37,261 nt of DNA, taken from Bacteroidia bacterium (GTDB lineage: Bacteria; Bacteroidota; Bacteroidia; JADZBD01). Positions 5,707 to 35,376 of this stretch are shown piece by piece; positions within the stretch are counted from its first letter, which is position 1, and every line of letters begins with the position of its first letter. The notes below the pieces were generated by a model. It saw nothing but the letters and a program-made list of their open reading frames with translations. It made no database searches and was not told where the DNA came from. Both the position numbers and the translations under genes were made by a program. The stretch covers positions 1 through 37,261 of the forward strand of contig JAGVMA010000084.1 of NCBI GenBank assembly GCA_020054095.1. The letters run 5' to 3'.

Positions 5707-8700
5707 ATGAACCTAATCTCCCGATGCCGCTTAATTGGCGCTGCTTTTCTTTTTGCAGTTACAGCAAATGCCAACAGTAATCCTTCTGCAAAAGGTAGCT
5801 GGTCTGTTTCAAATCCTTTTGAACAAAAAGTGTTCATCGAAAACAAAGGTCAGTATGACTTGAAAAGCGAAAAACCTGCCGACATAAAATACGGTGTAAA
5901 TAATTTGGGAACAGAAATTTACTTTACACCTAAAGGGCTTTTCTACCGAATAGAAGAACAAGAAATGATATTGCACGAAGAGCATGAGTATGAAAAAGAC
6001 AAACGTAAACCGGGCAAAGAAGAAGGCGAAGAGCGCGAAATAAAAACCAAGCTAAACATTCTAAACATGGAATGGGTGGGAGCAAACCCTAACGTGCAAA
6101 TATTTGCTGAAGGAGAAGCTGCCGACTATTATAATTTTTGTGATCCTAAAAATCCGAAAGGACAAGGGATTAATAACGTAAAAGCATTTAATAAAATAAC
6201 TTACAAAAACCTCTATCCGAATATTGATGTGGAATATGTGTTTCAATCAAAAGATTCGAAAACGGGTGTGAAGTACACCATTATATTGCATCCCGGTGCC
6301 GATGCAAGTTTAATTCAAATGAAATGGAAAGGATACAAAAAACATAATTTGGATGCGGATGGTAATATTCATTTTAACCTACATGCCGGAGAAATAGTTG
6401 ACCACGCTCCTGTTACTTGGTATCAAAATACTAAACAGAGTATAGCTACATCATTCAACGAAAAAAACGGAACAGTAAGTTTTAATTTGGGCGCTTACGA
6501 TAAAACACAAACTGTAATAATTGACCCTTGGACGGTCAATCCAAACTTTCCGCAAAACAACAAAGCGTATGATATTACTAAAGATGGGCTTGGAAACATT
6601 TATGTATTTGGAGGAAAAAATCCTTACTTATTAAAAAAATACGATTCAGCAGGAAATCCAATATGGACATATACTTCCCCATTCACAGGTTGGTATGGCG
6701 ATTTGGCGGTTCATCCTACAGGCGAATCTTACATCACGGAAGGTTACAGTGCAAGTAACTCGTTTGGTGCCATTGCAAGAGTAAATGCAAACGGAGCACA
6801 AGTTTGGTACACGCAGCAAGTGCAATTAGAATTGTGGTCGCTTGCATTTAACTGTACTTATTCCGTGCTTACAGTTGCCGGTGGTGTGTGGCAAGCACGC
6901 ACATCTACTGTTAACACAAGTAACGGTACACTAACGGGTACTATCACATTTGTAAATACAGGTGAAACTCGCTCAATGACACAAGCGCCAACAGGTAATT
7001 TTTATCACTTGTGTATTTCAGGCGCCAACTCTGTTGCTTCGCTCACATCTGCAAATGCATTGGTGTGGAACACCCCAAGTGGCTACGGCATAGGCTACGG
7101 AACACCTCAATACAATAACAGCTATAGCACTATGGATGCCGGCTTTAACGGTATAGCGTGTGATAATAATTTTGTTTACACTATTGATGGTATTACACTG
7201 ACAAAGAAAGATATTATTACAGGTGCAACAATGGGAACTGCTGTTATTCCGGGCGGAACAAACACAGGCAACGGTGGTGTATTTATTGATGCCTGTGGAA
7301 ACGTGTATGTAGGCTCGCAAACGCAGATACATAAGTTTGCTCCCAACTTAACTTTAAGTTCATCTACTGCAGCACCGGGTGCTGTTTATTGTTTGGCAAA
7401 TGGAGTGGGAGCAACTGATATTCTTTCGTGTGGAAATGGTTTTATAGCATCGGTTAACATTGCTAACATTTGCCCCATTAACCTTACACTTAACACTACA
7501 GGTGCTGGTGGTTGTGCGCCTAACTCAGGCACAGCAACAATTGTTGTAACAGGCGGTACAGGCCCTTACACCTATTCATGGTCTCCTGGCGGACAAACCA
7601 CATCTACCATCACCGGATTATCATCAGGTACATATATAGTTACTGTTACTGATGCCACAAGCTGTGTGCCTTTTACTGATACTATCACCATTTCAACCGG
7701 AAGTGGATTTAGCTTGGCTACTGCGGTAAATAATAATGTATCGTGTAATAATGGTTCAAATGGTTCGGCTGCAGCTACACCAAGTGGCGGTAACGGCCCT
7801 TACACTTATGTGTGGACACCATCAAACCAAACAACCCAAACCGCTACAGGAATGCCCTCCGGAACTTATACCGTGGTTGTTACCGATGCAAGCGGATGTA
7901 GTTCTACACAAACTGTGATTATAACACAACCTACGCCACTAGCTGCCACAATGGCTAATACCGCTCCGCTATGCAACGGTGGCAGCAACGGTTCGGCAAC
8001 GGTAACGGCATCGGGAGGAACAGGGCCTTATACTTATTTGTGGAACAATGCACAAACGGCACAAACGGCTACCGGTTTAACATCCGGAAATTATACTGTA
8101 ACTATTACCGATGCTAATGGATGCACCATGCAGCAAACAGTTACACTCAATCAACCGGCTGCAATGACAGTTAATACTACTGTGGTGCAGCCAACTTGCA
8201 CACAAGCAAATGGGTCGGCTACTGCTACACCTAACGGTGGAAATGGCCCGTACAATTATTTATGGAACCCATCCAGCCAAAATACACAAACAGCAACTGG
8301 TCTCATTGCCGGACTTTATACTGTAACCGTAACAGATGCAAATGGTTGTTCGCAGATAGATACTATTAGTATTACGGCAAGTGGAGCGCCTACTGTGGTT
8401 ACATCTATAGGAACTATTATGTGTAATGGTGGTAACACTACAGCTACTGCAACTCCAACAGGCAACGGGCCATTTACTTATGCCTGGTCGCCATCGGCAC
8501 AAACCACACAAACAGCTACTAACTTAACTTCCGGAACATATACGGTAACTGTTACCGATGTTAATGGATGCTCTGTGCAAACAATTGTTATTGTATCTCA
8601 ACCTGCTGCATTGCAATTGGCAAGTACTAACGTAACTAATACTAGTTGCGGAAATAATAATGGCAGTGCCACCGTTTCAGCTTCGGGCGGAACCGGAAAC

Positions 8701-9618
8701 TACACTTATAACTGGCAGCCATCAGGCGGAAATAGCTCATCTGCTTCGGGCTTATCTGCGGGTACTTATACCGTAACTGTTACCGATGCTAATGGTTGTA
8801 CATCAATAAGCACACTTACTATAATGCCAAGCGCAGGGCCTAATCCGGCATTTGTAGTGCAGCCTGCAACTGCTTGCGATAGTGTTTGCATTACGCTTAA
8901 TGCTACGCAATCAGGCATGAACTATAGCTGGACTTTTAGCAATGGAAATAGCAGTACACAACAAAATCCTTCAGTTTGCTTTTATCAGCCTGGCACGTAT
9001 AATGCAACACTTATTGTTACTGATAACAATGGTTGTACTGCCACTTCATCGCAAAATACAATTGCTACAGTTGTTACACCACCATCGGCCGATTTTACTG
9101 CCGATCCTAATTCTACTACTATTACAGATGCTACTATCAACTTTACCGATAATTCAAATGGCGCACTAACTTGGTTATGGAATTTTGGCGACCCTGCAAA
9201 TTCAACAAGCAATCAGCAAAATCCTACATTCACTTATGTGGATACAGGTTATTATTGCATTACATTATCGGTTACAAACCAAGCCGGATGCACAGATACA
9301 TCAGTTATTTGTATTGATGTAAAAGGCGAGTTTACCTTTTTTGCTCCCAATGCATTTACTCCTAATAGCGATGGCAAAAATAATACTTGGGAGCCAAAAG
9401 GCGTAGGAGTTGACCCTGCAACGTATGAGTTATTTATTTTTGATCGTTGGGGAAATATGATTTGGAAAACTAATCAGTGGGGACAAGGATGGGATGGAAA
9501 AGCAAACGGTGGGAGCGAAGTAGTGCAGCAAGATGTTTACGTATGGAAATGTAATTTCCGCAGTACCATTGATGGCTCAAAACGCAGCTATGTTGGACAT
9601 ATTTCAGTAGTCAAATAA
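5707..9618 (+). CDS. Giant secreted SprB-repeat protein with PKD domains and T9SS type B C-terminal domain
   Basis: A 1303-residue exported protein. Residues 1-24 form a signal peptide (LIGAAFLFAVTANANS). Residues about 35-275 begin FIENKGQYD and resemble the N-terminal DUF7948-type domain of Bacteroidota surface proteins. Residues about 280-590 look like a beta-propeller of the SBBP kind (repeated GNIYV-type strands such as GLGNIYVFGG and ACGNVYVGS). Six SprB-type repeats of about 75 residues follow (about 591-1041), each with GxGPYTYxW and GTYTVTVTDANGC motifs, then two PKD domains (about 1045-1204). Residues about 1207-1303 (NAFTPNSDGKNN, FDRWGNMIWK, DVYVWK) are the gliding-motility-associated CHU_C domain that directs export by the type IX system. 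A role in adhesion or gliding is inferred from the family. It is paralogous to the protein at 31162-35376. Confidence 0.9.
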   Translation: MNLISRCRLIGAAFLFAVTANANSNPSAKGSWSVSNPFEQKVFIENKGQYDLKSEKPADIKYGVNNLGTEIYFTPKGLFYRIEEQEMILHEEHEYEKDKRKPGKEEGEEREIKTKLNILNMEWVGANPNVQIFAEGEAADYYNFCDPKNPKGQGINNVKAFNKITYKNLYPNIDVEYVFQSKDSKTGVKYTIILHPGADASLIQMKWKGYKKHNLDADGNIHFNLHAGEIVDHAPVTWYQNTKQSIATSFNEKNGTVSFNLGAYDKTQTVIIDPWTVNPNFPQNNKAYDITKDGLGNIYVFGGKNPYLLKKYDSAGNPIWTYTSPFTGWYGDLAVHPTGESYITEGYSASNSFGAIARVNANGAQVWYTQQVQLELWSLAFNCTYSVLTVAGGVWQARTSTVNTSNGTLTGTITFVNTGETRSMTQAPTGNFYHLCISGANSVASLTSANALVWNTPSGYGIGYGTPQYNNSYSTMDAGFNGIACDNNFVYTIDGITLTKKDIITGATMGTAVIPGGTNTGNGGVFIDACGNVYVGSQTQIHKFAPNLTLSSSTAAPGAVYCLANGVGATDILSCGNGFIASVNIANICPINLTLNTTGAGGCAPNSGTATIVVTGGTGPYTYSWSPGGQTTSTITGLSSGTYIVTVTDATSCVPFTDTITISTGSGFSLATAVNNNVSCNNGSNGSAAATPSGGNGPYTYVWTPSNQTTQTATGMPSGTYTVVVTDASGCSSTQTVIITQPTPLAATMANTAPLCNGGSNGSATVTASGGTGPYTYLWNNAQTAQTATGLTSGNYTVTITDANGCTMQQTVTLNQPAAMTVNTTVVQPTCTQANGSATATPNGGNGPYNYLWNPSSQNTQTATGLIAGLYTVTVTDANGCSQIDTISITASGAPTVVTSIGTIMCNGGNTTATATPTGNGPFTYAWSPSAQTTQTATNLTSGTYTVTVTDVNGCSVQTIVIVSQPAALQLASTNVTNTSCGNNNGSATVSASGGTGNYTYNWQPSGGNSSSASGLSAGTYTVTVTDANGCTSISTLTIMPSAGPNPAFVVQPATACDSVCITLNATQSGMNYSWTFSNGNSSTQQNPSVCFYQPGTYNATLIVTDNNGCTATSSQNTIATVVTPPSADFTADPNSTTITDATINFTDNSNGALTWLWNFGDPANSTSNQQNPTFTYVDTGYYCITLSVTNQAGCTDTSVICIDVKGEFTFFAPNAFTPNSDGKNNTWEPKGVGVDPATYELFIFDRWGNMIWKTNQWGQGWDGKANGGSEVVQQDVYVWKCNFRSTIDGSKRSYVGHISVVK
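7480..8830 (+). repeat. Six tandem SprB-type coding repeats
   Basis: Six in-frame units of about 215-225 bp encode SprB-like domains. Approximate borders are 7480-7700, 7710-7930, 7937-8160, 8160-8375, 8390-8605 and 8606-8830. Each unit ends with a version of GTYTVTVTDANGC followed by a strand. DNA identity between units is moderate, so they are old duplications rather than a recent expansion. Confidence 0.75.
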
Positions 9619-9622
9619 TTTA

Positions 9623-9655
9623 TTTGGCAGTTTGATAAAAAAGATTTTATATTTG
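9623..9655 (+). promoter_or_regulatory. Promoter of the histidine operon
   Basis: TTTG at 9623-9626 is followed after 21 nt by TATATTTG at 9648-9655, a perfect TAnnTTTG box. Transcription should start at about 9661-9663, only a few bases upstream of the leader peptide ATG at 9670, which fits a leader transcript. Confidence 0.7.
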
Positions 9656-9669
9656 CCCCGAATTCACAA

Positions 9670-9714
9670 ATGAAACAATTCACACACATACACCATCATC
9701 ATACTTTCCCCTAA
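9670..9714 (+). CDS. hisL: Histidine operon leader peptide
   Basis: A 14-codon frame, MKQFTHIHHHHTFP, with five histidines (codons 6 and 8-11, at 9685-9702) and a TAA stop at 9712. The E. coli HisL leader is similarly short with a run of seven histidines. It sits between a good promoter and a perfect intrinsic terminator directly upstream of hisG, which is the expected position for a translated attenuator. When charged tRNA-His is scarce the ribosome would stall on the His codons. It has no enzymatic role; its translation is the regulatory act. Too short for ordinary gene finders. Confidence 0.85.
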   Translation: MKQFTHIHHHHTFP

Positions 9715-9790
9715 AGGGTAAGCTGGTTGGTATTTGTGTAAAACATAAACTTAAAAGGGCTTACTTAACAGTAAGCCCTTTTTTATTTTA
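9682..9790 (+). promoter_or_regulatory. Histidine attenuator with alternative stems
   Basis: Three competing pairings can be drawn. Segment 1 (9682-9691, over the first His codons) pairs with segment 2b (9730-9739) through five plus four base pairs around one mismatch. Segment 2a, GTAAGC at 9718-9723, is complementary to GCTTAC at 9759-9764 within the terminator's 5' arm, with flanking G-U pairs, giving an antiterminator. Segments 3 and 4 form the terminator. A ribosome stalled at the His codons would block segment 1 and favour the antiterminator, so hisG is transcribed when histidine is short. The pairings are seen directly; the mechanism is inferred from classical his attenuation. Confidence 0.75.
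9753..9784 (+). terminator. Intrinsic terminator of the his attenuator
   Basis: A perfect 12-bp stem, AAAAGGGCTTAC (9753-9764) with GTAAGCCCTTTT (9771-9782), has a TTAACA loop and a run of six Ts (9779-9784). It ends 12 nt before the hisG ATG, so reading through it is required for expression of the operon. Confidence 0.88.
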
Positions 9791-9796
9791 ATAACT

Positions 9797-10657
9797 ATGG
9801 AAACAAAATTAAAAATTGCAATTCAAAAATCGGGGCGCTTGTATGATGATAGCATTAAGTTGCTTAAAGAGTGCGGTATTGATTTTTCAAACGGAATAAA
9901 CAAACTGAAAGCAGAGGCGTTAAACTTTCCGCTCGAAGTGTTTTTTCTGCGCGATGATGACATTCCACAATATGTGGAAGATGGAGTTGCTGACATAGGA
10001 ATGGTTGGCGAAAATGTGGTACTGGAAAAAAACAAGAAAGTGAAAGTGATTGACCACTTGGCTTTTGGTAAATGCCGACTCTCCATTGCAATTCCAAAAG
10101 ACAAAAAATATACCGGTAAAAATTATTTGCAGGGGAAAAGAATTGCAACAAGTTATGCCAATGTACTTTCGGGTTTTTTAAAAACAAATAAAATAAATGC
10201 CGAAATACACGAAATTAGCGGCTCAGTAGAAATTGCTCCAAGCATTGGATTGGCAGATGCGATTTGCGATTTGGTTAGTTCCGGAAGCACACTTTTTTCA
10301 AATGGACTAAAAGAGGTAGAGGTGATTTTAAAGTCGGAAGCAGTTTTAGTTGCAAACAAATCGTTAGGTAAAAAGCAAAATGAGATTCTTAAGAAATTGC
10401 AATTCAGAATTAACTCAGTAAAAAAATCGAAAAAAAACAAATACATTTTGCTTAATGCACCTAACAAAAACTTAGATGCAATATGTGATATTCTCCCGGG
10501 AATGAAAAGCCCAACTATTCTTCAGCTTGCCGATAAGGGATGGAGTTCGGTTCATTCAGTAGTAAACGAAAATGATTTTTGGGGTATTATAGAAAAGTTA
10601 AAAGCTAATGGCGCACAAGGCATTTTAGTTGTACCAATTGAAAAAATGATTGTATGA
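9797..10657 (+). CDS. hisG: ATP phosphoribosyltransferase, long form (HisG)
   Basis: First enzyme of histidine synthesis: joins ATP and PRPP to give phosphoribosyl-ATP. It has 286 residues, the long form. Residues 1-210 are the two-lobed catalytic part, with KIAIQKSGRLYDDS at the start, VADIGMVGENVV and DLVSSGSTLFSNGL, the last forming the PRPP phosphate-binding loop. Residues about 215-286 are the ACT-like regulatory domain that in this form binds histidine for feedback inhibition, so no HisZ partner is needed. The ATG follows the attenuator terminator by 12 nt. Its stop overlaps the hisD start (ATGA). Expression is probably set by the leader at 9670-9790. Confidence 0.95.
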   Translation: METKLKIAIQKSGRLYDDSIKLLKECGIDFSNGINKLKAEALNFPLEVFFLRDDDIPQYVEDGVADIGMVGENVVLEKNKKVKVIDHLAFGKCRLSIAIPKDKKYTGKNYLQGKRIATSYANVLSGFLKTNKINAEIHEISGSVEIAPSIGLADAICDLVSSGSTLFSNGLKEVEVILKSEAVLVANKSLGKKQNEILKKLQFRINSVKKSKKNKYILLNAPNKNLDAICDILPGMKSPTILQLADKGWSSVHSVVNENDFWGIIEKLKANGAQGILVVPIEKMIV

Positions 10658-11928
10658 TAAAAATTACTAAATATCCTCAGCCAAATGATTGGGCAAAACT
10701 GCTGCAAAGGCCATCAATAGAAACCGCTAAGTTAGAAAAAACAGTTGCTGATATTATACAACGCGTAAAAGAAGATGGCGATAATGCATTGCGTAACTAT
10801 GCAATGCATTATGATGGTGTTAAATTACAATCGCTTGAGGTTCCGGAAAATGAAATTTTTAATGCGGTAAATGAAATCTCGATTTCGCTGCAACAGGCAA
10901 TTAGAGTTGCTTATAATAACATACTCGCTTTTCATAGTGTTCAAAACCAAACCGAGCCATACGTTGAAACTGTTTCGGGTGTGATGTGCTGGCGCAAATC
11001 CATACCTGTTCAAAAAGTAGGATTGTATATCCCGGGTGGCAGCGCACCTTTATTTTCAACTGTACTAATGCTAGGTGTACCTGCTAAAATTGCCGGTTGC
11101 AGCGAAACAATATTATGTACACCATGTGATAAAAACGAAAAAGTAAATGCTGCAATACTCTATGCCGCTGATTTGTGTGGAATAAAAAAGATATATAAAG
11201 TTGGAGGGGCACAAGCAATTGCGGCAATGGCTTTTGGTACGCAATCAATTAACAAAGTGTATAAAATTTTTGGTCCGGGTAATCAATTTGTTACTTGTGC
11301 TAAGCAGTTGGTACAAAATTATGGCATTGCCATTGATATGCCTGCTGGACCTTCGGAGGTTGCAATACTGGCAGATAGGCAAGCAAACGCTGCATTTGTT
11401 GCAGCAGATATTTTAGCTCAGTTAGAGCATGGTGCGGATAGTCAATCTATTTTGGTTACAGATTATTTACCATTTGCAGATGAGGTTAACACAGAAATTG
11501 AAAAGCAAATCAGCTCTCTTCCGCGATCAGAATTGGCTTTGAAAGCAATTGCAAATAGTAAAATTATTATTGTAATGAGCATGGAAGAGGGAATGAATTT
11601 AATTAATGAGTATGCCCCCGAGCATTTAATTTTGGCAGTTGAAGATTCGACAGAGATAGCGCAAGGAATAACTAATGCCGGTTCAGTTTTTTTAGGAAAT
11701 TACTCTCCTGAAAGTGCCGGTGATTATGCAACTGGAACAAACCACACATTACCTACCAATGGTTATGCAAAATCGTATAGCGGTGTGTCGCTAGATAGTT
11801 TCGTAAAAAAAATAACTTTTCAAAAATTAACTAAAGCGGGATTGTCGTTACTTTCAAATACAATTATAGAAATGGCAGAAGCAGAAGGGTTACAGGCGCA
11901 TGCTAATGCCGTAAAAATAAGAATGTAA
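10654..11928 (+). CDS. hisD: Histidinol dehydrogenase
   Basis: Catalyses the last two steps, oxidation of histidinol to histidine with NAD, using zinc. The 424 residues match the family. Visible motifs are KVGLYIPGGSAPLFST, VGGAQAIAAMAFGT, FGPGNQFV, AGPSEVAILAD, LEHGADSQSILVT, EYAPEHL and the C-terminal LQAHANAV; the His residues in EHG, EHL and AHA are among the zinc or catalytic sites known for the family. It starts within the stop of hisG (4-bp overlap) and ends 2 nt before hisC. Confidence 0.96.
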   Translation: MIKITKYPQPNDWAKLLQRPSIETAKLEKTVADIIQRVKEDGDNALRNYAMHYDGVKLQSLEVPENEIFNAVNEISISLQQAIRVAYNNILAFHSVQNQTEPYVETVSGVMCWRKSIPVQKVGLYIPGGSAPLFSTVLMLGVPAKIAGCSETILCTPCDKNEKVNAAILYAADLCGIKKIYKVGGAQAIAAMAFGTQSINKVYKIFGPGNQFVTCAKQLVQNYGIAIDMPAGPSEVAILADRQANAAFVAADILAQLEHGADSQSILVTDYLPFADEVNTEIEKQISSLPRSELALKAIANSKIIIVMSMEEGMNLINEYAPEHLILAVEDSTEIAQGITNAGSVFLGNYSPESAGDYATGTNHTLPTNGYAKSYSGVSLDSFVKKITFQKLTKAGLSLLSNTIIEMAEAEGLQAHANAVKIRM

Positions 11929-11930
11929 AA

Positions 11931-12989
11931 ATGAAAACTATAGAAACGCTATTAAGAGATAATATTAAAAAATTAGTTCCTTATTCATCTGCACGAGATG
12001 AGTTTAAGGGCGAAGGAAAAGTTTTTTTAGATGCTAATGAAAATTCTTTTGGCGATCCTTTCATAGATTCAAATACATCATATAATCGCTATCCGGATCC
12101 GCACCAAAAAAAACTAAAAACTAAAATAGCTGCAATAAAAAATATTAATACCCAAAATATCTTTTTAGGAAATGGCAGCGATGAAGCGATTGATATTTTA
12201 TTTCGCGCATTTTGCAACCCTGCAATTGATAATGTAATTATTGTGCCACCCACCTATGGCATGTATGAAGTAAGTGCAAATATTAATGATGTAGCAATTA
12301 AGAAAGTATTGCTTAATACTGAATTTCAATTAGACGTGCCTGCTATTTTGAGTAGTATTGATGATAGAACAAAACTTATTTTTCTTTGTTCTCCTAATAA
12401 TCCAACCGGTAATTCGCTGAACAGAAAAGATATTGAACAAATACTTAATGCCTTTTCAGGCATAGTAGTTTTAGATGAAGCGTATATAGATTTTTCATTT
12501 CAAAAATCATTCTCACAAGACTTATTCGCTTATCCCAATTTAGTTGTACTGCAAACTTTATCTAAAGCTTATGGTTTAGCTGCATTGCGAGTGGGTATGG
12601 CTTTCGCTTCACGGGATATTATAAATGTTTTTAATAAAATAAAACCGCCATACAATATTAATGCAGCATCACAACAAATTGCTTTAGATGCTTTAAATGA
12701 AACCGAACTGAATAAAAAACGAGTAATGGAGATTATTTCTCAACGCAATTTTTTAGTTGCAGAAGTAAAGCGTCTTGCTTTTGTGAAAAAAGTTTTTAAT
12801 AGTGATGCAAATTTTATTCTTCTAAGAGTGGATGATGCAAATGAATTGTATAAATACTTGTCGCAAAATTTCATAGTAGTTCGTAATCGAAGCAGCGTAG
12901 TATTGTGCGTGGGCTGTTTGCGTATTACAGTGGGAACTCCCGAAGAAAATATATTATTGATTAATACATTAGCAAAATACAAAAAATGA
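11931..12989 (+). CDS. hisC: Histidinol-phosphate aminotransferase
   Basis: PLP-dependent aminotransferase of fold type I (352 residues) that converts imidazole acetol phosphate and glutamate to histidinol phosphate. ANENSFGDP lies near the N-terminus (about 30-40), GNGSDEAID binds the cofactor phosphate, SPNNPTGN and VLDEAYIDF contact the pyridine ring, and [14 protein letters not shown] contains the Schiff-base lysine (about residue 210). [10 protein letters not shown] at the end includes the substrate-binding Arg. It begins 2 nt after hisD and overlaps hisB by 4 bp (ATGA). Confidence 0.95.
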
Positions 12990-14095
12990 AAAAAGTACTT
13001 TTTATTGACAGAGATGGAACATTGATTTGGGAGCCACCGGATAATTTCCAAATAGATAGTTTTGATAAACTAAAATTTTTACCGGGTGTTATCACTTGGC
13101 TTGGTAAAATTGCCCGAGAGTTTGATTTTGAGCTGGTGATGGTTACTAATCAAGATGGACTTGGCACAGCTTCGTTTCCTGAAAACACATTTTACCCTGT
13201 TCATAATTTTATGGTTAACACACTTGCTGCTGAAGGCATTGTGTTTTCTGAACAATGCATTGACCACACATTTGAAAACGAGAATAAACCTACACGCAAA
13301 CCTAATACAGGAATGCTTACAAAATATTTGACCGGTCAATACGATTTAAAGAATTCATATGTTATTGGCGATAGAATAACAGATGTTAAACTGGCGCAAA
13401 ATTTAGGATGTAAATCTATATTCATTAAAAATTATGATGCTCCAGCCGAATGGCAAAATAAAATTGATTTAATAGTAACCGATTGGCGCGAAATTTATTA
13501 TTTCTTAAAATCATCTGCCCGAAAGATTTCTCACTCCCGAATTACGAAAGAAACAAGTATAACTATTGAAATTAATCTTAACGGAACAGGTATTGCCGAT
13601 ATTAAAACCGGACTTTCCTTTTTTGATCACATGCTCGAACAAATTGCGAAACATGCCGGCATTGATTTAAGCATAAATGCAAAAGGCGATTTGCATATTG
13701 ATGAACACCACACAATTGAAGATACTGCTATTACACTTGGGGAAGCATTTTCTTTGGCATTAGATTCAAAAAAAGGCATAGAGCGTTATGGCTTTTGTTT
13801 GCCTATGGACGATTGTTTGGCGCAAGTCGCATCAGATTTTGGAGGCAGAAACTGGATTGAATGGAATGTAGAGTTTAAAAGAGAAAAAGTAGGTGATGTG
13901 CCAACAGAAATGTTTTACCATTTTTTTAAATCTTTTTCTGATGCTGCAAAGTGTAACCTAAACATAAAAGCAGAAGGCGATAACGAACACCATAAAATAG
14001 AGGCAATTTTTAAAGCATTTGCAAAAGCAATTAAAATGGCGATTAGACAAGATGAAAACAACATGACCTTGCCTTCAACTAAAGGTGTATTATGA
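12986..14095 (+). CDS. hisB: Bifunctional histidinol-phosphatase / imidazoleglycerol-phosphate dehydratase
   Basis: A two-domain enzyme of 369 residues. Residues 1-165 are a HAD phosphatase: FIDRDGTLI holds the nucleophile Asp8 and Asp10, VTNQDGLG is motif II, and [12 protein letters not shown] is the acidic motif III. Residues about 175-369 are the dehydratase: [23 protein letters not shown] and [12 protein letters not shown] carry the metal-binding histidines. The phosphatase zinc loop is altered: E. coli HisB has C-x-H followed by C-x-C, while here only CIDH remains and the second pair is replaced by Asn/Lys/Thr ([10 protein letters not shown]). Overlaps hisC and hisH by 4 bp each. Confidence 0.95.
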
Positions 14096-14673
14096 AAGTA
14101 GCAATTATAAAATATAATGCAGGGAATATTCGCTCAGTAGTTTTTGCTCTTGAGCGTTGTGGAGTTAATGCTATTGTTACCGATGATGCGGCTGAAATAA
14201 ATTCGGCTGATAAAATTATTTTTCCCGGTGTGGGTGAGGCAAGTTCAGCAATGCGCTATTTGCAGAGTAAAAATCTTGATAAGCTTATAGTTGATTTAAA
14301 GCAACCGGTGCTTGGGATTTGCCTCGGTATGCAGCTAATGTGTAATTATTCTGAAGAGGGTAAAACAAAGTGCTTGGGAATTATTGATGCTGATGTAAAA
14401 CAATTCATCGGTGGCGAAAAAATTCCTCATGTTGGCTGGAATACGATTAATCAACTAAACACTAATTTGTTTAATGGGATTGCAGAAAACGAATACGTTT
14501 ATTTTGTCCATGGCTTTTATGTGCCGCTAAATTCTTTTTCGATTGCAACGGCCAATTATATTGTTAATTATTCTTGTGCAGTGCAAAATGGAAATTTTTA
14601 TGCTGTTCAGTTTCATCCTGAAAAATCTGCGACTGTGGGCGAGAAAATCTTAAACAACTTTTTGTCGCTATGA
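14092..14673 (+). CDS. hisH: Imidazole glycerol phosphate synthase, glutaminase subunit
   Basis: Class I glutamine amidotransferase of 193 residues that makes ammonia for His[12 protein letters not shown] opens the fold; GICLGMQLM contains the nucleophilic Cys (about residue 80) and [12 protein letters not shown] the catalytic His and Glu near the end. [11 protein letters not shown] is the conserved oxyanion-side loop. It overlaps both neighbours by 4 bp, which fits translational coupling. The partner hisF lies one gene downstream, after hisA. Confidence 0.95.
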
Positions 14674-15392
14674 TAGAAATTATTCCCGCAATAGATATTA
14701 TTGATGGTAAGTGCGTGCGCCTATCGCAGGGCGACTATAATCAAAAAGTAATTTACAACAATAACCCACTTGATGTTGCTCTTCAGTTTGAAGATGCAGG
14801 TATTAAGCGTTTGCACCTCGTGGATTTGGATGGTGCAAAAGCAGGCGATGTAAAAAATTGGAATGTACTTAAAAAAATTTCGAGCAATACAAAATTAATT
14901 ATTGATTTTGGTGGCGGCATAAAAACGGGCGAAACAATTGAACGAGTTTTTAATGTTGGAGCGCACATAGCCACTTTGGGAAGTATTGCAGTTAAACAAC
15001 CCGAAGTTTTTTATTCGTGGATAGAAAAGTACGGTGCTGATAAAATTTTTCTTGGTGCGGATGTGAAAAATGAAATGATTACCCTGTCTGGCTGGCTGGA
15101 ACAAACAACGGTTTCCATTTTTGATTTTCTTGATACTGTTAAACAGCGTGGAGTAGTAAATTATTTTTGCACTGATATTTCAAAAGATGGACTGCTGCAG
15201 GGTGTATCGACCGAACTGTATAAAAAATTAATGAATTATTTTCCATCTTTAAATCTTGTTGCAAGTGGTGGCGTATCTTCAATTGAGGATATTGATCAAC
15301 TTAATACAATTGGTTGTAAAGGAGTAATTGTAGGCAAAGCAATTTACGAAGGACGTATCACGCTTAACCAACTGAAAAAATATGCTTGCTAA
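14670..15392 (+). CDS. hisA: Phosphoribosylformimino-AICAR phosphate isomerase
   Basis: A (beta/alpha)8-barrel isomerase of 240 residues (ProFAR to PRFAR). [20 protein letters not shown] carries the first catalytic Asp (about residue 8), [10 protein letters not shown] and [11 protein letters not shown] form the two phosphate-binding loops, and [12 protein letters not shown] carries the second catalytic Asp. The half-barrel repeat shared with HisF is evident. Its last 11 bp overlap the start of hisF, the largest overlap in the operon. Confidence 0.95.
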
Positions 15393-16137
15393 ACGAATTA
15401 TACCTTGCCTTGATATAAAAGAAGGACGAACTGTAAAGGGCGTAAATTTTTTAAATATACGTGATGCGGGAGACCCCGTGGAGCTTGCTAAAATATATAG
15501 TGATGATGGTGCCGATGAATTAGTTTTTTTAGATATATCGGCTACTAACGAAAGAAGAAAAGCGTTATCTGCTTTAGTAGCTAAAATTGCAAAAACAATA
15601 AATATTCCTTTTACGGTTGGTGGCGGCATTTCCAAAATTGACGATGTTTCTGTTTTATTAGATGCTGGCGCAGATAAAATATCGGTCAATACTTCTGCAG
15701 TTAAAAACCCTGATTTGATTTCTGATTTAGCAAAACAATTTGGTTCGCAATGTGTAGTGGTCGCAATTGATATAAAACTTGAAGATGGTGATTGGTATGT
15801 TTACTTAAATGGCGGTAGTGTAAAAACAAATTTACTAGCAACTGATTGGGCATCCCAGGCGCAACAATTAGGAGCGGGTGAGATTTTACTTACATCCATG
15901 AATAATGACGGAACAAAAAATGGTTTTGCGATTGACATCACAAAAAAAATATCTCAATCGCTTAGCATTCCTGTAATTGCAAGCGGTGGAGCCGGCAAAA
16001 TGGAACACTTTGCTGGTGTTTTCAAACACGGATTTGCTGATGCAGCTTTGGCTGCAAGTGTTTTTCATTTTAAAGAAATTGAAATTCCGGAATTAAAAAA
16101 ATATTTATTGTCAAACAAAATACCAGTTAGAATATGA
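15382..16137 (+). CDS. hisF: Imidazole glycerol phosphate synthase, cyclase subunit
   Basis: A (beta/alpha)8-barrel cyclase of 251 residues that uses ammonia from HisH to form imidazole glycerol phosphate and AICAR. The start [20 protein letters not shown] includes the catalytic Asp at about residue 11; [20 protein letters not shown] carries the second Asp near 130; [11 protein letters not shown] and [10 protein letters not shown] bind phosphate. The ATG is inside the end of hisA, and the stop overlaps hisI by 4 bp. Confidence 0.95.
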
Positions 16138-16727
16138 ATCCCGATTTTAAAAAATATGCCGATGGACTAATTCCGGCAATTATTCAAGATGCCGAAACCA
16201 ATATTGTACTGATGCTTGGCTTTATGAATGAAGATGCATTTAAAAAAACACTTGAGTTGAAACAAGTAACCTTTTACTCACGCTCCCAAAAACGTTTGTG
16301 GACAAAAGGCGAGGAAAGCGGAAACTTTTTACAACTCAACAGTATTTCAATTGATTGTGATAACGATACGTTTTTAATTAAAGCAAAGCCGGCTGGTGTT
16401 GTTTGCCACACAGGTGCCGACACCTGCTGGAATGAAAAAAACATTTCAACAGATTTTTTATTACACCTACAAGCTGTTATTAATGAGCGCAAAAATTCTC
16501 CCCCCGAGAAATCATACACTTCTTCTCTTTTTGAAAAAGGAATAAATAAGATTGCACAAAAAGTAGGCGAGGAGGCAACGGAATTAGTTATTGAAGCAAA
16601 AGATAATGACGATGATAAGTTTAAAAGCGAAGCTGCAGATTTGCTTTTTCATTACCTGGTGCTGCTTTCTGCTAAAAATGTTTCTTTAAGCGATGTGATA
16701 GCAGTGCTAAAAAGTAGAGAGAAATAA
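16134..16727 (+). CDS. hisI: Fused phosphoribosyl-AMP cyclohydrolase / phosphoribosyl-ATP diphosphatase
   Basis: HisIE fusion of 197 residues that carries out steps two and three. Residues about 1-110 are the cyclohydrolase: [31 protein letters not shown] and [12 protein letters not shown] hold the metal- and zinc-binding Asp and Cys residues. Residues about 115-197 are the helical MazG-like pyrophosphatase: [15 protein letters not shown] and [11 protein letters not shown] with the acidic magnesium site. It is the last gene of the operon. Its TAA ends at 16727, and the stop codon of the opposing gene begins at the very next base. Confidence 0.95.
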
Positions 16728-31161: not shown

Positions 31162-34100
31162 ATGAAAAAATACTTACTCTCACTGCTACTGATAGTAATA
31201 ACCGCAGCAAATAGCTTTGCACAAGGCGGAAATTCTTGTGCTGCAGCACAAGCCAACCCATCTGCATTACCTTTTAATTATACAGGCCAAAGTACTTGTA
31301 GTTCTACCAATTCATATACCGGAACCAATGGTTGCTTATCTACAACTTATTATACAGCTAATAACTGGTACTATTATTTTTGTGCTACGCAAAACGGTTA
31401 TGTAACCATTAATGTTCCGGTTACCACTAGCACATTAGCAGCTTACCCATCGGTATCGGTTTTTTCCGGTTGCCCCACATCGGGAGGACAATGTCTTGCA
31501 GCGGCTTATGCCTATGCTCCGGCAAATACAACCACTACTGTATCGGTTACAGTTCAGGTAAATGCCAATCAATGTTATTTCGTAGTTATTGATGGTTACT
31601 ATTTTGCAAGTTCTTATGCGCAGTGTTTTAATTTTAGTGTAAATAGCACTTTTACACCCATACCTGTTCAAGCGGGATGTACCAATATGAATTTTGAAGC
31701 AGGTAATCTTACCGGTTGGTTTTGCACCACCGGCCAATCAGTAACCGGATGTACTACTTGTCCCACACCTACTTATAACCAAACTGCAATAGGAGTTGTA
31801 GCCGGCCGGCACACTATTATGACAGGCGGTAACGACCCATGCGGAGGTTTCCCATGTGTGGCACCGGGCGGTAGTTTCTCAGCTCGCTTAGGAAATAATT
31901 CTACAGGCGCACAAGGTGAACGCATGAGTCAAACTTTTACCGTATCGGCAGCAAATGCAAGTTTTACTTATAAATATGCAGTAGTATTGCAGGATCCAAG
32001 CCATCAGCCGTATCAACAACCATTTTTTCAGGCAATAATGCGCGATGGAAGCGGAAACATCATTCCATGTTCGCAGTTTATTGTTTCTGCGGCTGCCAAC
32101 CTTAGTGGATTTTTCAACTCTACTAGTTGTGCATCGGTGCGTTATAAACCATGGACAACTGTAAACGTAGATTTAACGGGCTATATAGGCCAAAACGTAA
32201 CCATTGAATTTACTACAGGCGATTGCAGCGCGGGTGCTCACTATGGCTATGCCTATATTGATTGCGAATGTGCACCATCTTTATTACAAGCTAATAACGA
32301 CACTATCTGCCAAGGGCAATGCGCTACTTTATCTGCTCCTGTTGGCTATCAATCTTATTCTTGGGCACCGGTAAACAATACTACTACAAGTATCACTGTT
32401 TGCCCCACTGCTACCACTATTTATACTTTAACATTAACTGCATTTAACGGTTGCACCACTCAAAATCGCGATACAATATGGGTAATGGCAAACCCTACAG
32501 CTAACTTCACAGTGAGTGCGCCACAATGTAACACGCCAATTACCATTACCAATAACTCATCGGTGGCGCTGCCGAGTACTATCACTAACTGGAACTGGAC
32601 TTTTCCGGGTGGTAGTCCATCATCATCCACAGCACAAAACCCAAGCAATATTACTTACAGCACACCGGGTACCTATACTATAACGCTTGTCGTTACTACC
32701 CAAGCCGGATGTACGGCCACATTTACGCAAACCATCGTAATACCACCTTGTAACCCGCAGGTGGTTGTAAGCGGAGGCTCTGTTTGTACGGGAGGATGTA
32801 TGACTTTAACAGCCACACCATCATCAGGCAACCCGCCATATAGTTTTGTTTGGTCGCCCAATATTGGAACCACATCAAGCGTGCAAGCGTGCCCTACAGC
32901 AACTACTATATATACTGTTACCATTACCGATGCACAAAACCAAACAGCTACCGATACGGTTCAGGTAATAGTAATGCCACCTATCAATATTAATATGACG
33001 AGCACCACCGTATTGTGTTTTAGCGGCACGGCATCTGCAACAGCTACACCTACTAATGGTAATGCACCTTACACATATTTGTGGAACAATGCACAAACTA
33101 CACAAACTGCCACCGGTTTAGTAGCCGGAACTTACAGTGTAACCGTAACCGATGCCACCGGATGTACGGGAACTGCAACCATCACCATTACACAACCACC
33201 ACAACTTACCGTTAGTGCTACATCTACAAACGTATCCTGCTTTGGCGGAAACGATGGAACAGGCACAGCAACTGCAAATGGTGGAGCAACACCTTATAAC
33301 TACAACTGGGCACCAAGCGGTGGAAACGCTGCTACCGCAACAGGATTAACAGCAGTTACATACACAGTAACCGTAACCGATGCAAACGGATGTACAGCAA
33401 CAGCCACCATCACAGTTACCGAACCTACGCTGCTCATCGCATCGGTAGCTGGTTTTGATGCTACTTGCTTTGGCGCATGCAATGGCCAGGCAGTTACTAT
33501 TCCATCGGGTGGAACTACGCCATACGCATATTCATGGGCGCCATTGGGTGGAAACGCACCAAGTGCTGTAAATTTATGTGCAGGTTCTTACACAGTGTTT
33601 ATTACCGATGCAAACGGTTGTACCTTCAGCGGAACAGCTACTGTTAACGAACCACCTGCATTGGTCTTAGGTTACACTGCCGTTACAGCAAGTTGCATGC
33701 AAGCAGATGGAAGTGCCAACGTAACTGCATCGGGCGGAACACCAACTTACGCTTATGCATGGAACCCGAATGTGAGCACAACTAACAGTGCCAATAATAT
33801 TTTTCCGGGCACTTATACTGTTACCGTTACAGATGCTAACGGCTGTTCGGATACAATACATGTAGTAGTTCCAAACCAGCCGGGTGTGGTAGCAAGCATC
33901 ACAGCATTTACCAATGTAACTTGCTTTGGCTTTTGCGATGGCTTCGCCACAGCATCGGCTATAAACGGAACTGCACCTTATACTTATAACTGGACACCAA
34001 GCGGAGGCACCAGTACAACAGCCACCGGCTTGTGCGCAGGTACTTATACATTTACTGTTACCGATGCCACAGGATGTATTGATACAGCAATAGTAAACAT

Positions 34101-35376
34101 TACCGAACCACAACAATTAGTGGTGCAACCCGGACCGGGCGTTACTATATGTATTGGTCAATGCACTACTTTAACAGCAACTGCATCGGGCGGAACACCT
34201 GCTTACACATACTCGTGGGCGCCTGCAGGGCCTAGCAATGTGTGCCCTACCGTAACTACTACTTATACTGTATATGTAACAGATGCCAATAACTGTCCAT
34301 CAAATCCGCAAACGGTTACTGTAACAGTGGCACCACCACTTGGTGTAACAGCAGCAGCTAACCCTGCAATAATTTGTATCGGCAGCAGCACACAAGTGAG
34401 CGCTACAAGCAGCGGTGGTAATGGCGGCCCTTATAATTATTCATGGTCTCCGGGCAATGCAACTACGCAAGCTGTTACTGTATCACCAACGGCAACTACT
34501 ACTTACACCGTGTGGGTAACCGATGGCTGCGGAACACCTACTGATACTGCAACAGTAACAGTGGTTGTAAATCCTTTGCCTATTATTACTTTCTACTCAA
34601 GTGATAGCAGCGGCTGCGCACCACTTTGCGTAGATTTCTTTGATACTACACCTAATGGCGCACAGTGGGCGTGGACGTTTAACGGTGCAAGTCCTTCAAT
34701 GTCTTCATCACAAAATCCTACCAATATTTGCTACTTACTATCGGGCAGTTACGATGTGAGCTTAACCGTAACCGATAACAACGGCTGCTCAAGCACGGCA
34801 ACTGTACTTAACATGATAACCGTGTACCCATCGCCAATAGCCGATTTCGGGATGACACCAACCACCACCACTATTCTTAACCCTATAATTTGCTTTAACG
34901 ATTTATCGCAAAGCGCAAGTTCATGGACATGGAATTTTGGCGACCCAACGGATATTAATAACGCAAGCAACGACCAAAACCCTTGTCATACATATAGCGA
35001 TACGGGCAGATATTGTGTAAACCTAACGGTAGCAAGCCAGTTTGGATGCGTGGATACAGTTACGTATTGTTTAATTATAGAACCTGATTTTGCAATTTAT
35101 GTTCCCAATGCATTTACACATGAAAATGGCGATGGTAATAACGATACCTTCTTCCCGCAAGGCATAGGCATAGATAAAGACAAATTTGAAATGTGGATTT
35201 ATGATCGCTGGGGCAATATGATATGGTACAACCAAGTGTGGGGCAAGGGCTGGGATGGCCGTGCCAATGGCGGAAGCGATATTGCACAGCAAGATGTATA
35301 TGTATGGAAAATTAATTTGTACGATGTGTTTGGCAAAAAACACTCGCTGATAGGACATGTTACGCTTGTGAAATAA
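31162..35376 (+). CDS. Giant secreted SprB-repeat protein with Ig-like and PKD domains and T9SS type B C-terminal domain
   Basis: A 1404-residue exported protein. Residues 1-21 are a signal peptide (MKKYLLSLLLIVITAANSFA). Residues about 25-165 resemble a prepeptidase-type beta domain (NNWYYYFCATQNGYVTINV). Residues about 170-370 look like a jelly-roll domain (NFEAGNLTGWFCTTG, SFSARLGNNS). Ig-like and PKD domains follow (about 375-600), then five SprB-type repeats (about 608-986), two Ig-like units (about 991-1136), two PKD domains (about 1138-1306) and the CHU_C domain (about 1308-1404: VPNAFTHENGDGNND, IYDRWGNMIWY, QQDVYVWK). It is Cys-rich for a surface protein. Its last 97 residues are clearly homologous to those of the 5707-9618 protein. 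Export by the type IX system and an adhesive role are inferred. Confidence 0.9.
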   Translation: MKKYLLSLLLIVITAANSFAQGGNSCAAAQANPSALPFNYTGQSTCSSTNSYTGTNGCLSTTYYTANNWYYYFCATQNGYVTINVPVTTSTLAAYPSVSVFSGCPTSGGQCLAAAYAYAPANTTTTVSVTVQVNANQCYFVVIDGYYFASSYAQCFNFSVNSTFTPIPVQAGCTNMNFEAGNLTGWFCTTGQSVTGCTTCPTPTYNQTAIGVVAGRHTIMTGGNDPCGGFPCVAPGGSFSARLGNNSTGAQGERMSQTFTVSAANASFTYKYAVVLQDPSHQPYQQPFFQAIMRDGSGNIIPCSQFIVSAAANLSGFFNSTSCASVRYKPWTTVNVDLTGYIGQNVTIEFTTGDCSAGAHYGYAYIDCECAPSLLQANNDTICQGQCATLSAPVGYQSYSWAPVNNTTTSITVCPTATTIYTLTLTAFNGCTTQNRDTIWVMANPTANFTVSAPQCNTPITITNNSSVALPSTITNWNWTFPGGSPSSSTAQNPSNITYSTPGTYTITLVVTTQAGCTATFTQTIVIPPCNPQVVVSGGSVCTGGCMTLTATPSSGNPPYSFVWSPNIGTTSSVQACPTATTIYTVTITDAQNQTATDTVQVIVMPPININMTSTTVLCFSGTASATATPTNGNAPYTYLWNNAQTTQTATGLVAGTYSVTVTDATGCTGTATITITQPPQLTVSATSTNVSCFGGNDGTGTATANGGATPYNYNWAPSGGNAATATGLTAVTYTVTVTDANGCTATATITVTEPTLLIASVAGFDATCFGACNGQAVTIPSGGTTPYAYSWAPLGGNAPSAVNLCAGSYTVFITDANGCTFSGTATVNEPPALVLGYTAVTASCMQADGSANVTASGGTPTYAYAWNPNVSTTNSANNIFPGTYTVTVTDANGCSDTIHVVVPNQPGVVASITAFTNVTCFGFCDGFATASAINGTAPYTYNWTPSGGTSTTATGLCAGTYTFTVTDATGCIDTAIVNITEPQQLVVQPGPGVTICIGQCTTLTATASGGTPAYTYSWAPAGPSNVCPTVTTTYTVYVTDANNCPSNPQTVTVTVAPPLGVTAAANPAIICIGSSTQVSATSSGGNGGPYNYSWSPGNATTQAVTVSPTATTTYTVWVTDGCGTPTDTATVTVVVNPLPIITFYSSDSSGCAPLCVDFFDTTPNGAQWAWTFNGASPSMSSSQNPTNICYLLSGSYDVSLTVTDNNGCSSTATVLNMITVYPSPIADFGMTPTTTTILNPIICFNDLSQSASSWTWNFGDPTDINNASNDQNPCHTYSDTGRYCVNLTVASQFGCVDTVTYCLIIEPDFAIYVPNAFTHENGDGNNDTFFPQGIGIDKDKFEMWIYDRWGNMIWYNQVWGKGWDGRANGGSDIAQQDVYVWKINLYDVFGKKHSLIGHVTLVK
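32985..34120 (+). repeat. Five tandem SprB-type coding repeats
   Basis: Five in-frame units of about 220-230 bp, with approximate borders 32985-33200, 33205-33430, 33430-33660, 33660-33880 and 33885-34120. Each has a Y(T/N)YxW core and a GTYTVTVTDANGC-like end, with a Cys near the start of each unit (for example NVSCFGGNDG, NVTCFGFCDG). Confidence 0.72.

Follow-up and report, generated by a model that had tools for sequence, protein, structure and literature searches.

A predicted leader-peptide attenuator of the trp/thr type before the histidine operon of a Bacteroidia bacterium

The histidine operon and its leader region

Is histidine biosynthesis in this member of the Bacteroidota controlled by transcription attenuation at a translated leader? 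The question is raised by contig JAGVMA010000084.1 of a Bacteroidia bacterium (assembly GCA_020054095.1), analyzed here as a single window of 37,261 nt. It contains a complete his operon, hisGDC(NB)HAF(IE), in which every gene is supported by Pfam domains. The first gene of the controlled operon, hisG, occupies positions 9797-10657 of the plus strand (PF01634, PF08029) and is followed on the same strand by hisD, hisC, the bifunctional HAD-phosphatase/IGPD gene hisB, hisH, hisA, hisF and hisI(E) at 10654-16727. On the other side of the leader region lies a gene for a surface protein with SprB repeats and a CHU_C type IX secretion signal (5707-9618); its product and a second large protein, encoded at 31162-35376, resemble each other in their C-terminal regions.

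Between these genes, an open reading frame on the plus strand (ATG at 9670, stop codon TAA at 9712-9714) encodes the hisL-like peptide MKQFTHIHHHHTFP, in which five of 14 residues are histidine, in accord with a previous sequence-only reading of this region. The His codons begin at 9685, 9691, 9694, 9697, and 9700. Together with the codons after them they make up segment 1 (9684-9710, plus strand, as are all segments), the 5' side of a 1:2 hairpin whose 3' side is segment 2 (9716-9739). A single base separates the leader stop codon from GGGTAAGCT (9716-9724), the part of segment 2 that forms the 5' side of the antiterminator. Segment 3 (9753-9765) is the 5' arm of an intrinsic terminator, and segment 4 (9770-9784) comprises its 3' arm (9770-9782) and the U-run. 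The terminator, described previously as a perfect stem of 12 bp, is in fact 13 bp long, pairing AAAAGGGCTTACT (9753-9765) with AGTAAGCCCTTTT (9770-9782), and the T-run noticed with it is present as TTTTTT at 9779-9784. The antiterminator proposed at the same time, GTAAGC (9718-9723) with GCTTAC (9759-9764), was confirmed by direct reading of the sequence and forms part of a longer helix between 9716-9724 and 9758-9766. Antiterminator and terminator both use positions 9758-9765, and the two pairings are thus mutually exclusive. The leader as a whole, about 120 nt in length, folds better than its shuffled versions (z -5.0; none of 200 shuffles was as good).

Alternating structures and a model of regulation

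The four complementary segments are predicted from the sequence to alternate between two states, one with the 1:2 and 3:4 pairs and the other with the 2:3 pair. The 1:2 hairpin over the His codons, which had been anticipated by the sequence-only reading, was recovered in each of the 36 aligned loci, with a median z of -3.2, and in its apical part CTTACC-like codons are commonly paired with GGTAAG of segment 2. For the 2:3 duplex the mean energy was -11.95 kcal/mol with a leader's own partners, compared with -9.64 for swapped partners and -6.97 for shuffles; segment 2 was located here by the best duplex, a choice biased to pairing, and the shuffle control was handled identically. The cores of segments 2 and 3 differ between lineages, being GGTAAGC/GGCTTACC, ACTCAAGCG/CCGTTTGAGT, GGCGAGCC/GGGCTTGCC, or CAGGCGAG/GCCCGCCTG, and the antiterminator and terminator cores vary in step from lineage to lineage. 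Covariation in the terminator amounts to four pairs and 23 cells altered on both sides, values reached by 7/500 and 0/500 shuffles, respectively. Within the MAFFT-based alignment A1, the 2:3 helix was 94.8% paired, compared with 22-52% when it was slid. Covariation of the 2:3 helix inside this alignment is weak (20-45 of 500 shuffles match the observed values), because the core is nearly invariant there, and the support for this helix thus comes from changes between lineages.

These features point to the following scheme. Transcription would start about 10 nt ahead of the leader ATG, with the ribosome trailing RNA polymerase. When histidine is scarce, the ribosome would stall on the His codons (9685-9702) and cover segment 1; segment 2 (GGGTAAGCT, just past the stop codon) would then be free and, ahead of the synthesis of segment 4, would pair with segment 3 (GGCTTACTT), no terminator would form, and hisG-hisI would be transcribed. 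When histidine is plentiful, the ribosome would reach the stop codon at 9712-9714 and cover segment 2, leaving segments 3 and 4 to form the terminator and transcription to end at 9779-9784. If no ribosome were present, the 1:2 hairpin would sequester segment 2 and the terminator would be expected to form too.

The scheme was evaluated with a masking model, in which the ribosome footprint extends from 14 nt before the P site to 12 nt past the A site and the transcript ends before segment 4. In this model, the probability of the 2:3 pairing was 0.88-0.93 for a ribosome placed on any of the His codons, fell to 0 when it stood at the stop codon and was 0.03 with no ribosome, so that a stall frees segment 2 and a ribosome at the stop covers it. 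The His-stalled state exceeded both other states in 77 of 87 distinct loci, an outcome that is partly inherent in the geometry. The locus also combines a short reading frame rich in codons for the product amino acid, conserved in relatives and predicted to be translated, with an antiterminator and an intrinsic terminator that exclude each other through a common segment. With a probability of roughly 0.94, we regard the element as a ribosome-mediated (leader-peptide) transcription attenuator of the 1-2-3-4 (trp/thr) type, tuned by the supply of charged tRNA-His, and the same reading has been given to amino-acid operons in transcriptome work on Flavobacterium psychrophilum (PMC9723704).

About ten relatives encode longer peptides upstream of hisG (L032, L035, L002/L047, L049, L036, L037, L038, L040, and L048). 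There the reading frame runs through the GGTAAGC segment to a stop codon 20-30 nt past segment 2. In most of these loci the masking model gives antitermination and readthrough with the ribosome at the stop codon, against the classical scheme.

Distribution in the Bacteroidota

We collected hisG relatives from the genomes of related bacteria and from GTDB contigs, obtaining 104 usable upstream regions, and scored each for a leader (at least three His in nine codons) followed by a terminator. Both parts were found before hisG in 89 of the 104 loci, among others in Chitinophaga, Ferruginibacter, Parafilimonas, Sediminibacterium, Tenacibaculum, Flagellimonas, Hanstruepera, and Aureispira; an ATG-initiated frame with at least four His in nine codons was present in 77. 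The same combination occurred in 0/104 reverse strands, in 0/67, 0/67, and 0/66 other stretches of the same loci and in 1/520 shuffles, which excludes a chance origin. The comparison of hisG upstream regions that had been suggested for this locus thus bears the proposal out: both the His run and the terminator are conserved, and the stems show compensatory changes.

When the phylum was sampled evenly, the leader with the terminator was present in 23 of the 29 genomes belonging to the same class, and a His leader in all 29; each of the six genomes not scored for both parts has an ATG-initiated frame with at least four His in nine codons. More distant genomes with a similar HisG had both parts in 17 of 31 cases, and those with a divergent HisG in 0 of 20 (the reverse-strand control gave 0). 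The window holds a genuine and conserved histidine attenuator that very probably works, and classical attenuation of the his operon appears to be the rule, not the exception, in this class of the Bacteroidota.

The same comparison bears on a rival explanation, that the hairpin serves just as a 3' terminator for the surface-protein gene upstream and the His-rich frame is incidental. That gene ends at 9618, we found no other terminator between its end and the leader, and readthrough from it would end at this hairpin. Against this stand the retention of the His leader together with the terminator in 89 of the 104 loci, the orientation of the nearest long upstream reading frame, which is opposite to that of the leader in 19 of 87 usable loci, the presence of a promoter box directly ahead of the leader in most loci, and the joint change of antiterminator and terminator. 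On the conserved leader and terminator, the upstream-frame orientation and the promoter box we rejected this explanation as very improbable.

Some loci scored as having only the leader do possess a terminator, hidden from the scan by a mismatch in L006 and by a long loop in L100, and two others (L153 and L157) have a weak AT-rich stem. Six loci in all (L152, L153, L157, L159, L122, and L125) carry a His leader followed by an AT-rich hairpin of 5-6 bp or by no clear terminator before hisG, and may represent a weaker or translational variant. Five of them (L122, L125, L152, L157, and L159) could be taken as favoring a mainly translational or Rho-dependent control, in which the position of the ribosome on the leader would decide whether the hisG start or a Rho site is accessible, with the hairpin mattering little as a terminator. 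For the locus studied here we consider such control most unlikely, given the strong covarying stem with its U-run in the window and in most relatives and the position of the hisG start codon outside the terminator hairpin.

In four loci of Blattabacterium cuenoti (L086, L092, L107, and L108), a GCTTAC/GTAAGC hairpin with a T-run is kept before hisG (GCTTAT in L108), and no His-rich leader frame was found upstream of the gene. These hairpins are possibly relics of an attenuator lost in an endosymbiont, or constitutive partial terminators.

Relation to known regulatory RNAs

A scan with the Rfam His_leader model (RF00514), proposed earlier as a check, failed to recover the element: the window gave no match even at E-values up to 10 (gathering score 49 bits), compared with 131.6 bits for the E. 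coli his leader used as a control. The best sub-threshold match, to Thr_leader (RF00506), reached 28.2 bits, where the gathering score is 55; membership in this family was rejected on the score and on the codons, which are for His and not for Thr or Ile. Elsewhere in the window, positions 2426-2511 of the plus strand match the Rfam Flavo-1 RNA (46 bits), a motif of unknown function.

A strongly structured RNA before an amino-acid operon could also be a T-box or another metabolite- or tRNA-binding riboswitch with an untranslated leader. Yet no T-box or riboswitch family of Rfam matched the window at gathering or relaxed thresholds, the leader is just about 120 nt long, and the loci share the His reading frame and the stems that overlie it but otherwise drift in sequence. 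We therefore give a riboswitch very little credence here.

The logic of four-segment attenuation is well established for the trp and thr operons of E. coli. The attenuator before hisG shares with trpL and thrL a leader peptide rich in the product amino acid, the 1:2, 2:3, and 3:4 pairings, an intrinsic terminator, and a stop codon adjoining segment 2. It differs from them in sequence, in its His codons, in its Bacteroidota promoter and in a very short predicted 5' UTR with no Shine-Dalgarno sequence. With the his attenuator of E. coli and Salmonella it has in common a run of His codons in a short frame before hisG and a stalled ribosome controlling the terminator; however, it has fewer segments, the E. 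coli control leader showing extra hairpins, and its five His are broken by Ile, whereas E. coli has seven in succession. Hence the description of the element as an E. coli-style histidine attenuator holds for the mechanism and not for the architecture: the element works like the E. coli his attenuator, has a simpler topology and lies outside the RF00514 sequence family. This sequence family is missing from Rfam, so standard annotation overlooks it.

The sequence-only reading had left open whether such a version had been described in Bacteroidota. At least in outline it has, for Flavobacteriaceae: leader-peptide attenuation and a conserved 5' element of hisG were reported for F. psychrophilum (PMC9723704). 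The elements before hisG and pheA in F. psychrophilum and other Flavobacteriaceae concern the same genes and phylum, were proposed to act by attenuation and likewise lack an Rfam match (PMC9723704), but their anatomy is absent from the main text of that report, the window comes from another lineage of the class, and the Flavobacteriaceae core is CCCGTTTGAG, compared with GGCTTACC here. Bacteroid-trp (RF01692), defined in 2010 (PMC2864571), is likewise a cis-regulatory RNA of Bacteroidetes, named for trp genes, but with another amino acid and another sequence; it matched neither the window nor the source genome (gathering score 49 bits). Short reading frames "reminiscent of leader peptides" have also been noted in B. 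thetaiotaomicron (PMC7366714), and a 2010 survey added Firmicutes to the Proteobacteria and Actinobacteria, in which alone leader-peptide systems had been known (PMC2965389).

The element is thus not novel in kind, given the Flavobacteriaceae precedent and the existence of Bacteroid-trp as an Rfam family. What is new is the breadth of its distribution, its fine anatomy, the sibling trp and phe leaders of the same genome, and 5' ends predicted to be nearly leaderless, at 10 nt in this locus and a median of 7 nt. Vitreschak et al. in 2004 or Lopatovskaya et al. in 2010 may already list Bacteroidetes attenuators; among the papers that our literature search covered, we found no description of the anatomy of the his element, of how widely it occurs or of the short 5' UTR.

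Promoters and predicted 5' UTRs

The promoter noticed previously before the leader is in place on the plus strand, with TATATTTG (9648-9655) as the -7 box, of consensus TAnnTTTG, and TTTG (9623-9626) as a candidate -33 element of the Bacteroidota sigma-A consensus (PMC7366714). The consensus TAnnTTTG occurs in the window once per about 1490 nt. In Flavobacterium the -7 box spans -12 to -5 relative to the start site (PMC9723704), so transcription is expected to start near 9660, which would leave a 5' UTR of some 10 nt. The sequence before the leader ATG (GAATTCACAA) has no purine-rich motif for ribosome binding. The earlier remark on how efficiently so short a leader could be translated in a phylum making little use of Shine-Dalgarno pairing was well taken, given this short predicted 5' UTR.

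An exact TAnnTTTG box lies in the 60 nt that precede the leader start in 48 of 80 distinct leader promoters, against six on the reverse strand and about four per 91 in shuffles. Inferred from the position of the box, the median 5' UTR of these 48 leaders is 7 nt; 28 measure at most 10 nt, and five are exactly 0, whereas the longest (22-44 nt) may reflect spurious boxes. By comparison, the whole-transcriptome median is 24 nt in F. psychrophilum, with 5.5% of transcripts leaderless (PMC9723704), and 32 nt in B. thetaiotaomicron, with 3.7% under 10 nt (PMC7366714). We tentatively suggest, at somewhat less than even odds, that attenuator leader peptides of Bacteroidota are translated from leaderless or near-leaderless transcripts, with the promoter tight against the leader ATG. 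If so, the first ribosome would load with no Shine-Dalgarno pairing once the start codon exits RNA polymerase, which would be a phylum-specific means of keeping polymerase and ribosome in step. Attenuation at this locus would imply tight coupling of transcription and translation over a leader of about 120 nt.

Candidate attenuators of the trp and phe genes

Further attenuators in the source genome were sought via gene families. None was found near its genes of the aspartokinase family. TPP_enzyme_N (acetohydroxyacid synthase) had no match in this genome, which is rated 100% complete, and the organism may lack synthesis of branched-chain amino acids. Two candidates were identified. Before trpE (contig C40, near 91486; L112) lies the Trp leader MRIILNNNWWWLNS, followed by the terminator AAAGCCCGCTGTTCAACAGCGGGCTTT; the Bacteroid-trp model does not detect this leader. 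Before pheA (contig C11, near 63757; L113) lies the Phe/Tyr leader MTNKNRYYFFFYPTPTKGLRKEIYFCN, followed by a 16-bp terminator. Each leader follows a TAnnTTTG box, with predicted 5' UTRs of 9 and 12 nt, respectively, so that the predicted values for the his, trp, and phe leaders of one genome fall within 9-12 nt. This short predicted 5' UTR common to three attenuators is the feature most worthwhile for experiment, and the three operons would offer a clean system for studying how ribosomes load fast enough for attenuation.
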